A stretch of DNA of 64,000 nt from NCBI GenBank assembly GCA_027493775.1, contig JAOSKE010000001.1, positions 372,001-436,000 on the forward strand, in the 5' to 3' direction. The notes under the pieces are model-generated. The model was given only the letters and a program-made list of their open reading frames with translations. It was not told the origin of the DNA and ran no database searches. Shown here in pieces: positions 38,271 to 63,302 of this stretch (the stretch's first letter is position 1; every line of letters starts with the position of its first letter). The stretch comes from Kiritimatiellia bacterium (GTDB taxonomy: Bacteria; Verrucomicrobiota; Kiritimatiellia; CAIVKH01). The position numbers and the translations under genes are program-made.

Positions 38271-38279
38271 TGGTGGAGG
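38201..38279. repeat. Right copy of 79-bp direct repeat (putative attR)
   Basis: Matches 17402-17480 with four mismatches. Its last 9 bases are the 3' terminus of ssrA. The copy contains a perfect hairpin GTTTCGCA-CGT-TGCGAAAC (38250-38268) and a GGCGG/CCGCC stem, which could also act as the ssrA transcription end. Confidence 0.78.
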
Positions 38280-38624
38280 CGGGGGGAATCGAACCCCCGT
38301 CCGCATAAGCGTTGCGATGGCTTCTACGCGCGTGTTCCGTAATTAAGTCTCGCCCAATGAGCTGCCCACGGACAGGCTACTCAGTGCGCCAGCACCCACG
38401 ATGGATACATCCTCAGTCCCCGGGTACTCGGTTCCTCAGACGCCCTGCTGTCGTCGCTTCATCCCCTTAGCAGGAGTTGGAGGTGAAACGTCTCGGCTAA
38501 ATTAAGCCGCGAGAGCCAGCTCAGAGTTGGCTTGTGTGTTTTCCCGCATTGTTAACGAGGCCAAGCGGGGGCCCCTGGCGCGCGACCAACACTTCAACAT
38601 ACACGTCGAAACCTGGACGCCCCC
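38271..38624 (-). ncRNA. ssrA: Transfer-messenger RNA (tmRNA)
   Basis: Rescues stalled ribosomes by trans-translation. The 5' end GGGGGCG pairs with the 3' CGCCTCC before ACCA (one G-U). The 3' T-arm reads GGGGGTTCGATTCCCCC and CCA is encoded. The length of 354 nt is typical. The tag frame ends ENTQANSELALAA followed by TAA, with a second stop-rich region and pseudoknot-like GC stretches after it. The resume codon cannot be fixed by eye. The island's repeat begins at its 3' terminus. Confidence 0.95.
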
Positions 38625-38701
38625 AAATTCGCTTTCCGACTGTCAGAGAACTGTTCGTAAAATACGCCATTCGCCTAGTGTTGTCGAATGGGAAGGAGAA
38701 G

Positions 38702-38778
38702 TGGCGTCCCCGGAGAGAGTCGAACTCCCAACCTTCTGATCCGTAGTCAGATGCTCTATCCAATTGAGCTACGGGGAC
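38702..38778 (-). tRNA. tRNA-Arg (ACG)
   Basis: 77 nt including encoded CCA. The acceptor stem is GTCCCCG/CGGGGAC, the D arm GCTCAATTGGATAGAGC, the anticodon loop CTACGGA (anticodon ACG) and the T arm GGGAGTTCGACTCTC. It lies 77 bp upstream of ssrA on the same strand. Confidence 0.95.
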
Positions 38779-51603: not shown

Positions 51604-51654
51604 AAACTTCCAACGCTTGGAAGTTTAGTCCAAAAGGACTTCCAAGGGTTGGAA
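51604..51654. repeat. Three adjacent stem-loops between convergent genes
   Basis: In 51 bp lie three perfect hairpins: AAACTTCCAA-CGC-TTGGAAGTTT (51604-51626), AGTCC-AAAA-GGACT (51627-51640) and TTCCAA-GGG-TTGGAA (51640-51654, sharing one base). They fill the gap between osmC-like and accA stops, so they may be a bidirectional terminator or a dispersed palindromic unit. Confidence 0.7.
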
Positions 51655-59554: not shown

Positions 59555-60604
59555 TCAGGGGCTTGGCTGTTCGCGTGTCAGACAATGGAGAGTACCGAGA
59601 CCCCAAACCAAATCAACGGCGTGAATTCCAATGACCGGACGGTCGGTGAATAGCTCCGAAAGGATGCCCAGCGCCTCGCGATCTTTCGCATCGTTGAAGG
59701 TCGGGACAAGGACCGCCGCGTTGCAAATGTAGAAGTTCGCGTAGCTCGCCGGGAGGCGCTGGCCGCGAAAATGGAGCGGCCCTGGCATGGGTAAAGCGAT
59801 TGAATTTAGTTTTGAGCCATCTTCCAGCCGCATATCCGACACGCGCTCCCAGTTTTCTTCGAGCGGCCGATAGTTGGCTTCAGCCGGATTTGTTTCGCGA
59901 ACCAGCACGATTGTTTTGGAATTCACGAAACGGCAAAGGTCATCCACGTGTCCATGCGTGTCATCGCCCGCAATGCCTTTGCCGAACCACAACACATTTG
60001 AAACACCGAAATATTTCGCAAAAACGCGACCCCAATCTTCTTTTGAGAACCCCGGATTGCGACACTGCACCTCCTGGTCCATAAAACATTCTTCCGTGGT
60101 CAGCAGCGTTCCGCGTCCGTTCACGTCAATTCCGCCACCCTCCAACACGACGCTTGTGCCTTTATGGGTCACCGGAGTCAGTGAAAGATCGAGTTTCTTC
60201 GCAGCTTTCGCAGCGATCCCGTTGTCGAGTTGCCAGTCCGGATATTTTGCCCATGCATTAAATTTGTAATCGAGAATCGTGAGGCCTTTTTTCTTTCCAC
60301 CCGTTCGCGCGAACATTGGGCCGAAGTCGCGAGTCCATCCGCGATTCGTGCGCCAACGGAAAAAGCGAACGCGCGAGGAGGCAACGCCGGTGGCGTCCAA
60401 GATGCGTCGCACAGAGGCTTCGTGCTTCGCGTCTTTCACGATAAGGTGAAGATTTTCGCCGGCGGAAATGTGCCGCGCCATTTCGCCGAACACCCAGGGG
60501 ATGGGCGAAAATTTGCCGGGCCAGTCCGTGACATTGTGTGGCCAGCCGAGCCACGTGGCCTCGTGTTGATCCCATTCAGCCGGATACAGCAGGGGTGCGC
60601 TCAT
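59555..60604 (-). CDS. aguA: Agmatine deiminase
   Basis: Hydrolyses agmatine to N-carbamoylputrescine and ammonia. 349 residues of the guanidine-modifying fold: TWLGWPHNVTDWPG, NRGWTRDFGPMF, VVLEGGGIDVNGRGTLLTTE, GDDTHGHVDDLCRF and the catalytic Cys in LGTLHCLTREQP. The last motif usually reads GGGNIHCITQQQP, so GLGTLHC is a mild variant with the Cys kept. aguB lies 6 bp upstream on the same strand. Confidence 0.95.
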   Translation of the reverse strand: MSAPLLYPAEWDQHEATWLGWPHNVTDWPGKFSPIPWVFGEMARHISAGENLHLIVKDAKHEASVRRILDATGVASSRVRFFRWRTNRGWTRDFGPMFARTGGKKKGLTILDYKFNAWAKYPDWQLDNGIAAKAAKKLDLSLTPVTHKGTSVVLEGGGIDVNGRGTLLTTEECFMDQEVQCRNPGFSKEDWGRVFAKYFGVSNVLWFGKGIAGDDTHGHVDDLCRFVNSKTIVLVRETNPAEANYRPLEENWERVSDMRLEDGSKLNSIALPMPGPLHFRGQRLPASYANFYICNAAVLVPTFNDAKDREALGILSELFTDRPVIGIHAVDLVWGLGTLHCLTREQPSP

Positions 60605-60610
60605 TTGTAA

Positions 60611-61489
60611 TTAATCCACGAAACGCTGCGTCAACTCGCCGAACACGTCCACGCGACGGTCGCGGAGGAAGGGCCAGCCGCGGCGCACTTCTTCGATACG
60701 GTTTGTGTCTGTTTCCACAACGAGGATTTCCTCTTTATTTGTAGAAGCCTCGGCAATCACGACGCCAAACGGATCGCTGACGAATGACGTGCCCCAGAAC
60801 TCAATTCCCGCTTCGTGCGGCTCGGTCTTTTCGTGACCGACGCGATTCACCGCAGCGACGTAGGTTCCGTTCGCGATCGCGTGACCGCGTTGAACGGTTC
60901 GCCAAGCATCGCGTTGTTCCGCACCGTAGCGATCTTTTTCATACGGATGCCATCCAATCGCGGTCGGATAAAAGAGCGTTGTAGCCCCGCGCAGCGCGGT
61001 TAGTCGCGCGGCTTCGGGATACCACTGATCCCAGCAAATTAAAACGCCGATGCGCCCCGCGTTCGTATCAAAGGCTTTGAATCCGAGGTCGCCGGGTGTG
61101 AAGTAAAACTTCTCGTAGAACCCCGGATCATCTGGGATGTGCATCTTGCGATACATTCCTTGGTTCTCGCCCTTGGGATTGAGCAGGACAGCGGTGTTGT
61201 GATAGAGGCCCAGCGCACGTTTTTCGAATAGCGGCGCAATGACGGTGACACCCGCCTTCTTTGCCGCCTCGCCCAAAATCCGTGTGGACGGCCCTGGAAT
61301 GGTCTCCGCCAAATCAAAGATCGCCGCATCCTCTTTCTGACAGAAATAAGGCGTGCGATACATCTCCGGCAGGCAGACGATTTGTGCGCCTTGCTTGCCT
61401 GCCTCTACAACGAATTCCGCCGCGCGTCGGGTGTTTTCATCCGCATCCGTCGAGCAGCGCATTTGAACCAGAGCGAGTTTGCTTTTCAT
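60611..61489 (-). CDS. aguB: N-carbamoylputrescine amidase
   Basis: Nitrilase-family enzyme releasing putrescine from N-carbamoylputrescine. 292 residues with the Glu-Lys-Cys triad visible: Glu in VCLPEMYRTPYF, Lys in YRKMHIPDDPGF and Cys in IGVLICWDQWYPEAAR. The ATG at 61489 is the homology start (MKSKLALVQM). With aguA it forms a two-gene route from agmatine to putrescine; the arginine decarboxylase is not in this window. Confidence 0.95.
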   Translation of the reverse strand: MKSKLALVQMRCSTDADENTRRAAEFVVEAGKQGAQIVCLPEMYRTPYFCQKEDAAIFDLAETIPGPSTRILGEAAKKAGVTVIAPLFEKRALGLYHNTAVLLNPKGENQGMYRKMHIPDDPGFYEKFYFTPGDLGFKAFDTNAGRIGVLICWDQWYPEAARLTALRGATTLFYPTAIGWHPYEKDRYGAEQRDAWRTVQRGHAIANGTYVAAVNRVGHEKTEPHEAGIEFWGTSFVSDPFGVVIAEASTNKEEILVVETDTNRIEEVRRGWPFLRDRRVDVFGELTQRFVD

Positions 61490-61557
61490 TGGCGCGGAGT
61501 GTGCCGGATTAAGGAAAAACTTCAACGATAGTTTGCCTCAAATCGAATGCGCGTTTC

Positions 61558-62049
61558 TTACTGCACAATGCGAAAGAAGCGAAACGGTTCCGCGGCCGAA
61601 ACCGTGACGTTGGTTTTCGCTACTTCAAACACAATGTCTGTCAGCGAGGTCCAAACCACCGGCTCCTCCAGCGAAGACGTTGCCTCAATGTGGTTTGTCA
61701 CACCGGAGGCCCACAGTTCCGCTTCGATCTGTACTTCATCTTCATCGCCGCTGAGGGCGGTAATCGTGACGTCGGTGTATAGAGCCAGTCTCGACTCCTT
61801 CTGTATGTTGTAATCCGCAAGCGTTCGGCCATCTGCAAGTAGGTTGCCGTTAAAAAACAAGAACTGTCTTTCCTCCGGCGGCCCACCTTTATCTAAAATT
61901 TTGTTTTTTACGGAGTCAATCGTGTCGTTAGCTTCCACTTCCAGCGCAAGCTCTTTGCCGGATGACCAGCGCGCGAAAATTTGCATTGCGAAGATCGGTG
62001 TCGCGTAGCTGAGAAATAGCGCCGTGAAAATTAAGATGGCTGTTCGCAC
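61558..62049 (-). CDS. Secreted ubiquitin-like domain protein
   Basis: A 163-residue protein with a signal peptide (residues 1-21, cleavage after PIFA). The mature part begins [20 protein letters not shown] and aligns without gaps to eukaryotic ubiquitin residues 1-69. I count about 41 identities in 69, including DTI, DGRTL and DYNIQKES. Ubiquitin lysines 11, 27, 29, 33 and 63 are kept; K6 is Arg and K48 is Asn. The LRGG tail is missing. Instead a beta-rich region of about 70 residues follows, ending RFFRIVQ. The protein is probably periplasmic or extracellular. Its role is unknown; conjugation as in eukaryotes is unlikely without the diglycine. Confidence 0.88.
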
Positions 62050-62123
62050 TTCGGAATCCTCCCTGACTGCGGAAATTTTTGCCGCAGCACTGAGCGAGTG
62101 GCGAGCATTAAATGAAATCCTGG

Positions 62124-63194
62124 CTACACTGTGTAGGCGCTGTCTCGCATAATCGTCTCGTGCGTTCCATCGGCATAGACGAGAGCAAGCTGGCGTAGGC
62201 CTATCGGGCAGCCACGCGCATAAACAATGTCGTGGTGGACGACGTGTGCGGGATCGCTGAATGCGTCCGGGCCAGTGACGCCGCCGAGGTGTTCGCTGCG
62301 GCCGTAGGCCCAGTGGAATCCGGCCTTTTCATCCTCCAATACACTGCCGAGCACTGCTGCGGACTCGTTGCAACCGAGGCCGAGTTCGGCAATGTTGCGT
62401 CGGGCCGGGTCCACGTCAAAATGCGCACGCAGGCGTTCCGCATACGCCCCGCCCGCGACTTCACGTATTTTATTTTCGCGGACGGTCAAGACCGCCTGTT
62501 CGCCTTCCCATGAAACAGGGATTTCGCCCGCCGTGCGACTCGGCGTGTCTGCCTGTTCGCCTTCGTAGGGGACGATGAACGCTTCGCCGCTGGGGAGATT
62601 GATCAGGCGGAACCCTGTTTTTTCGCGCGTGCAAATTCCGTCGTCCGCGTGAGCGTGGCGATGGCGAAGGTCGAAGCGAACGCGATGGCCGGTGTCAAAC
62701 TCCACTTCCGCAGACTCCGCGCGTTCGAGGCGTTCGGCAAGAAGTTGCGCCTTCTGTGCAACCTCGCGGTAATCTGCCGCAAGCGCGGTTTGTTCCATCC
62801 GCCGCAACACCCCCGGCATACTGGCCACGCGCAAGTCGTTGCGCGTTTTCACAAACGCGGAGAGCGGCGCGGTTGCGGAGTGTTTGGTCATTGCCACGAC
62901 GAGCGTGGCTTGCGCGATAGCGTCGGCGATGCGCGTGTCTTTGCCGTTTTGCGTTCCGATCTCCGGCAGGTCTGCGTTATTTCCGGCGCTTGCGGGAAAC
63001 GTGAGTAAGGGGGCGGGGGACGCGCCCAGTGCTGCGAAGGCCATGCGCCATTCCTCCGCCATCGCGCGGCGCTCGCTCCAGTCGGCATTGTCGGGAACTC
63101 CGGCGCGGGGCACATCCACCAATACGAGGACGTGTTCATGTTGCGCGGGGCCAAAAACGTCCCGCAGTAATTTGTGCAGATTGAATGTGTTCAT
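62124..63194 (-). CDS. Aminopeptidase-like protein (M29-related)
   Basis: A 356-residue protein resembling M29 (aminopeptidase T-type) peptidases. The C-terminal half has [52 protein letters not shown] and [14 protein letters not shown], which includes Glu and His residues matching M29 metal ligands. The ATG at 63194 is the homology start. Some members of this group may be non-peptidases, so activity is inferred. Confidence 0.75.
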
Positions 63195-63302
63195 TGCGGT
63201 TGCATTGGAACCGTGTGCGCCTTGCGCGTCAACTGCGCAATCATGGATTTGAGCGAAGAACGGTTGACGCACAGAGTCAATCCGCTACCTTCCTGCGTTT
63301 CC

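Follow-up and report, generated by a model that had tools for sequence, protein, structure and literature searches.

A divergent ubiquitin-headed protein from a Kiritimatiellia bacterium with a predicted export signal and a C-terminal tail module

Ubiquitin is the textbook intracellular tag of eukaryotes, and the ThiS and MoaD proteins carry sulfur in the cytoplasm and end in a diglycine. The closest described system is BfUbb of Bacteroides fragilis, presented in 2011 under a title that calls it a unique bacterial homologue (PMC3352274); a 2017 report calls B. fragilis one of few bacteria with a eukaryotic-like ubiquitin (PMC5705921). A review of bacterial and ancient ubiquitin systems names B. 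fragilis, and a 2007 survey of the beta-grasp fold points to further secreted domains of this fold. Databases label single genes as ubiquitin, and among the matches listed from the open-licence literature no paper deals, by its title, with anchored or autotransporter ubiquitins. Here we describe a ubiquitin-headed gene of a Kiritimatiellia bacterium (assembly GCA_027493775.1), found in a stretch of 64,000 nucleotides at 372–436 kb of contig JAOSKE010000001.1; this whole stretch is called the window below. The gene and its parts lie as follows.

61558..62049, minus strand: whole ubiquitin-headed gene, 163 amino acids, GTG start and TAA stop, with a start residue common to relatives P0001–P0004
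62057..62063, minus strand: Shine–Dalgarno-like GGGAGGA, 7 bases 5′ of the start codon, assigned by sequence
61987..62049, minus strand: predicted Sec signal peptide, residues 1–21, cut between PIFA and MQIF, with A at −1 and I at −3; assigned by sequence, at the same position in other exported bacterial ubiquitins
61777..61986, minus strand: ubiquitin domain, residues 22–91 (ubiquitin 1–70), without the diglycine; from profile, alignment and predicted fold
61561..61776, minus strand: C-terminal tail, residues 92–163, predicted six-strand fibronectin-III-like, ending in FFRIVQ; from profile matches and prediction

The original prediction, made from the letters of the window alone, had described an exported protein aligned ungapped with ubiquitin 1–69 at about 59% identity, and had proposed a structure prediction, a phylogeny and an inspection of the flanking genes. 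In that alignment, 41 of the 69 residues are the same as in human ubiquitin (59%). The observation is confirmed: the protein matches the Pfam family PF00240 at E 4e-16, with 58.9 bits against a curated cut-off of 25.4. AlphaFold2 predicts a beta-grasp head that superimposes on ubiquitin with a root-mean-square deviation of 0.8, and a beta-sandwich tail. Export likewise holds as a prediction, with the cleavage site directly before Met1 of ubiquitin and a mature protein of 142 residues. The RLRGG end with its diglycine is absent, replaced by 72 residues after ubiquitin position 70, where about 70 had been foreseen. Because the diglycine is missing and the polypeptide runs on into the tail, the usual activation of the ubiquitin C terminus is not possible. 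A search for E2 enzymes (PF00179) in the same genome gave no match, but control genomes gave none either. We rejected a ThiS/MoaD-like sulfur carrier, in agreement with the original prediction, since the protein lacks the diglycine and matches no ThiS or MoaD profile of Pfam at E up to 1.

We observed that the tail recurs on other proteins. It is a module of about 70 residues with a pattern of E, L, W and an RFYR-like motif, mostly C-terminal. A first profile of five rows matched the window alone in its own genome; a broad version of 17 rows matched 25 places there, the window and 24 other sites, with a best non-self E of 1e-8. At 21 of these 25 places the match ends within 12 residues of the stop codon, as do, within 8 residues, all 16 non-self matches obtained from 387 phylum genomes, one of which (L112) is itself a row of the profile. 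By a crude rule, a signal-like start is present in 10 of the 12 proteins with readable N termini among these 16. Ubiquitin was found neither in the 15 phylum matches other than L112 nor elsewhere in the own genome. The tail has no match to the Pfam fn3 family at E up to 1, and its putative likeness to fibronectin III is a fold prediction. The extra residues are a module comparable to the surface or secretion modules of the relatives and are predicted to be fibronectin-III-like. The C-terminal extension noted originally is thus present, but not as a unique trait, the module being matched 25 times in this genome.

To place the protein among its relatives, we scanned one genome per species across 84,980 species; 527 stretches matched, and 482 of them encode a relative of the ubiquitin alignment, some of these being likely contaminants. 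Statistics for the class rest on the best 80 of the 482 stretches, with 98 distinct open reading frames (ORFs), a choice that biases them toward canonical ubiquitin. By record title, the best 80 span 13 phyla, mainly Bacillota (27) and Pseudomonadota (26), and 17 are neither uncultured nor metagenome-assembled genomes (MAGs): Haliea, Chromatocurvus, Pseudomonas putida, P. kuykendallii, Paracidovorax, Leeia, Dyella, Loktanella, Pseudohaliea, Rhodoferax, Pedobacter, Conexibacter, two Saccharibacillus, Ruminococcus albus 8, Clostridiales NK3B98 and Verrucomicrobia IMCC26134. Of the 80, 74 have an export-like segment, defined as a hydrophobic stretch no more than 30 residues before ubiquitin with a small residue before Met1, and Ala precedes Met1 in 62 of the 80; some of the six that lack the segment resemble eukaryotic contamination. 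The RGG at the ubiquitin end is intact in 9 of the 98 ORFs and absent in 89. Closer to the window, PF00240 matched in 14 of the 387 phylum genomes, and 12 of 288 class genomes matched the window protein, its own included in both counts, and three full-length metagenome relatives are 82–83% identical to it.

What follows ubiquitin varies. Among 89 proteins scanned for Pfam modules (85 of the 98 ORFs, the window protein and the three metagenome relatives), we found an autotransporter beta-domain in 20, dockerin in 7, SLH in 5 and IPTL-CTERM in 5; some others carry Ig-type domains, and the rest are mixed or unrecognised. P0117 carries PF18962, which we take to be a type IX secretion tail. Of ten autotransporter-type proteins inspected singly, nine have a recognised barrel, which starts 49–69 residues after ubiquitin in eight (136 in L022), so that in those eight ubiquitin is nearly the whole passenger. 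The window protein has the same layout, with a signal-like segment, ubiquitin at once and a C-terminal module common to other proteins. The original prediction had proposed a second kind of exported ubiquitin beside BfUbb, set apart by its extension; the extension stands, and the protein is not a kind of its own but a divergent member of a large class of 482 stretches.

Several members of the scan deserve separate mention. Ubiquitin heads with a signal-like segment occur in two methanogen MAGs (L055 and L077; Methanothrix and Methanotrichaceae), and the L055 protein, of 1491 residues, has SdrD-like repeats by eye. Exported ubiquitin genes stand in side-by-side tandem pairs at L003/L070, L008 and L041; the proteins of L003, in a genome of the window's phylum, are identical to those of L070, from Verrucomicrobia bacterium IMCC26134. 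In the isolate Dyella sp. OK004 (L073, 5905–6228), a signal-like segment precedes a complete ubiquitin with RLRGG at the stop, one residue off human ubiquitin by eye. Two actinobacterial MAGs (L095 and L097) have tandem ubiquitin-headed genes that lack a signal-like segment and continue after ubiquitin with GVVTYQ or GVVSYQ; these are perhaps a different, non-exported type.

We next compared the head with human ubiquitin, using position lists for the Ile44 face and the core. The window protein departs from the human residue at 2 of 16 core positions and at 10 of 11 on the Ile44 face; elsewhere on the surface the figure is 17 of 43 (Fisher p 0.005 for the face compared with this remainder). The face is changed at 11 of 11 positions in P0002 and P0004 (p 0.004 each) and at 9 of 11 in P0003 (p 0.09); outside this clade P0119, with 8 (p 0.001), and P0117, with 6 (p 0.015), show the same tendency, and P0087, with 5 (p 0.26), does not. 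By contrast, 96 of the 98 other ORFs have a median of one face change in 11 and a median identity to human ubiquitin of 63/70. The new face is aromatic, with W7, F44, F or W45 and Y70 in all four members of the window's lineage, F45 being also the human residue, and position 42 is aromatic in three of the four. With the fold kept, the canonical face replaced and the diglycine gone, a ubiquitin mimic is disfavoured and a new ligand favoured.

The head also appears to be under selection. In pairs of the same architecture, the ubiquitin part has a proportion of nonsynonymous differences (pN) of 0.00–0.14 against a synonymous proportion (pS) of 0.02–0.88, and in eight Verrucomicrobiota pairs its ratio of nonsynonymous to synonymous rates (dN/dS) is 0.10–0.27, except for one very close pair at 0.58. 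The low pN relative to pS and the low dN/dS therefore indicate that the head is maintained in bacteria. The window's own lineage differs: across the window protein and P0002–P0004, 27 of 70 columns vary in the head and 13 of 72 in the tail (Fisher p 0.009). Compared as proteins, the heads of this lineage may also be under relaxed constraint.

We consider it somewhat probable that the window protein is an exported binding head held at the cell surface by its tail and not a conjugated ubiquitin tag. Sec export followed by signal peptidase I cleavage would make Met1 of ubiquitin the mature N terminus, and the head, which by its sequence runs straight into the tail, would escape the usual C-terminal activation. 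The two domains are predicted to fold separately. The tail would localise or cap exported proteins, as suggested by its near-terminal position, no more than 12 residues from the stop, in 21 of the 25 places, and the head may bind an extracellular protein or glycan through the aromatic patch on its former Ile44 face. Antagonism of neighbouring microbes is the leading candidate for its purpose, by analogy, because BfUbb, the exported ubiquitin with a shown function, is antibacterial. In a broader reading, which is plausible and which we hold just short of probable, extracellular ubiquitin heads would form a pan-prokaryotic class for microbe contact, spread over many phyla, and the face in the window's lineage would have been rebuilt as an aromatic site for a new ligand. 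The shared architecture would be an export signal, Met1 as the new N terminus and each lineage's own surface module: an autotransporter barrel, dockerin, SLH, CTERM or type IX tail elsewhere, and here the FYR tail.

BfUbb also suggests an alternative, in which the head is freed or secreted as a released antibacterial that inhibits sensitive neighbours and the tail only aids secretion. BfUbb is exported and its function has been shown, its signal peptide ends at Met1 and its terminal glycine is absent, according to the 2017 report (PMC5705921); the patchy distribution of the window gene, absent from two of two same-genus genomes, and the fast change of the head in its lineage would fit such antagonism. 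However, BfUbb ends at ubiquitin length, with 76 mature residues, whereas the window protein has a 72-residue tail that large proteins carry too. Barrels, dockerins or SLH domains occur in some relatives, and the Ile44 face of the window protein is rewritten. Clustering of neighbours at the 80 loci put no family in more than four of them, the ubiquitin protein (71 of 80) excepted, and thus gave no recurrent candidate for an immunity gene, although the BfUbb authors suggest that none is needed (PMC5705921). We therefore regard release as unlikely.

A head that served as a structural N-terminal cap, a small stable fold used as spacer or export-friendly start with no specific ligand, would account for the very varied C termini behind one constant position and for a lineage that keeps the core while its surface changes. 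We think this rather improbable, since the relatives keep nearly the whole ubiquitin surface, in a sample biased to close matches, pN is low relative to pS, and the autotransporter members, with little beyond ubiquitin as passenger, leave little to cap. Interference with a eukaryotic host or predator had been among the roles first proposed; it could take the form of ubiquitin mimicry that acts through the target's ubiquitin-binding proteins or enzymes. The 59% identity to human ubiquitin, the Ile44 face kept in most relatives and the origin of some relatives from rumen, ileum or faecal metagenomes (by record title) speak for it, but with 10 of 11 face positions changed and the RLRGG tail gone such mimicry is very improbable for the window protein, and isolates of genera that we take to be free-living, such as Haliea and Chromatocurvus, carry relatives as well. 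The other proposed role, a domesticated use, is plausible.

The genomic setting bears on whether the gene belongs to this bacterium at all. The scanned neighbours with assigned positions are these.

60611..61525, minus strand: downstream gene, N-carbamoylputrescine amidase-like, in the same direction as the ubiquitin gene; context
59555..60604, minus strand: agmatine deiminase-like gene, in the same direction as the ubiquitin gene; context
62124..63272, minus strand: upstream gene, weak M29 peptidase match, in the same direction as the ubiquitin gene; context

The fourth flanking gene scanned has a metallo-beta-lactamase fold, and all four, inspected as the original prediction had proposed, look bacterial. 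The contig is at least 1.3 Mb long, with other matches past 1.33 Mb, and the GC content at third codon positions (GC3) of the ubiquitin gene is 0.60, against 0.62–0.67 in its agmatine deiminase-like, amidase-like and M29-like neighbours. Some loci of the wide scan do look like contamination (L005, L046, L057, L060), with no signal-like segment, an intact RGG and, in one, tandem ubiquitin. For the window, a contaminating or misjoined contig carrying a eukaryotic gene has next to no probability, because the gene sits within a contig of that length amid ordinary bacterial genes, and its bacterial-type start signals, its host-like GC3 and a tail module common in the same genome agree; we rejected it. 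No sigma-70-like promoter was found in 61400–62300.

Within this genome the window gene is the single match to PF00240, and the two same-genus genomes examined, one of them 87% complete, have none. In one of them, G074, only a small gap separates the peptidase gene from the amidase gene, with no ubiquitin gene in it. The gene may have been gained by the window's lineage or lost by its relatives. The window protein matched no phage record; an autotransporter-type relative matched eight plasmid records, two of them in the ubiquitin part (Ruminococcus albus 7 and Pseudoalteromonas shioyasakiensis). Elsewhere, the window holds a tmRNA gene with the tag ANSELALAA and an adjoining tRNA-Arg gene (38271–38778). 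It also holds two TTCCA-N5-TGGAA palindromes with 17 bases between (51608–51654; 2 observed, 0.57 expected, 2 reached in 11 of 100 shuffles), and similar elements precede the amidase gene in G074 and G047 (L108, L110).

The proposed phylogeny, built on 151 domains and 70 columns, unites the window protein with P0002–P0004 in one clade (support 99) and has strong support on 4 of 132 inner branches; it permits no firm statement on eukaryotic against bacterial ancestry. A14 and N20, both present in the window protein, occur in 17 and 28 of 98 bacterial and in 4 and 3 of 44 eukaryotic domains, in sets picked by similarity; both are commoner in the bacterial set, yet exclusive to neither. We also looked for domain swaps in 29 comparisons, which are 27 distinct gene pairs (L004 equals L130 and L009 equals L131). 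pS was higher in the ubiquitin part than in the rest in three of 27 pairs at p < 0.003 and in one at p 0.03, and the reverse held in one pair at p 1e-5 and two at p 0.02–0.03. One pair has a diverged half whose end does not coincide with the domain border, and we therefore claim mosaicism and not domain swapping. The ubiquitin-head pair L141 (G107) and L142 (G489) is a mosaic gene, 90–99% identical over most of the C-terminal part and 79–86% over the signal peptide, ubiquitin and the first stretch after it.

A near-canonical form of this eukaryotic tag thus probably opens hundreds of exported proteins of prokaryotes, and in some of them it is almost all of the passenger, which raises the question of what partner ubiquitin has on the outside of bacterial cells. 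In the window protein, a divergent member, the fold is uncoupled from the recognition face, and its gene also reveals a C-terminal module matched at about two dozen places in one genome.

Among known systems, ThiS/MoaD-type proteins have the beta-grasp in common with the window head, whereas the diglycine and the family profile are theirs and not the window's. The same-tail proteins (L113–L127 in the phylum, L153–L176 in the own genome) carry the tail as in the window, mostly on larger proteins. BfUbb (PMC3352274, PMC5705921) resembles the window gene in a signal peptide that ends directly before Met1, in lacking a terminal diglycine and in its strain-patchy occurrence, and its genome is reported to be without the usual conjugation enzymes (PMC3352274). 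Its identity to human ubiquitin is 63% and it stops where ubiquitin does, at about 76 mature residues, whereas the window protein, whose predicted signal peptide by its sequence also ends exactly before Met1, has 142 mature residues with its 72-residue tail and a rewritten Ile44 face; BfUbb has a shown antibacterial activity (PMC5705921), the window protein a predicted function. Nearest in plan are the ubiquitin-headed autotransporters and other exported ubiquitins (L018, L021, L028, L061 and others), which share with the window protein a signal-like segment, ubiquitin first, a C-terminal module and no RGG, but whose heads are usually much nearer canonical ubiquitin and whose recognised modules are the outer-membrane barrel, dockerin, SLH, IPTL-CTERM and, in P0117, the type IX secretion tail.
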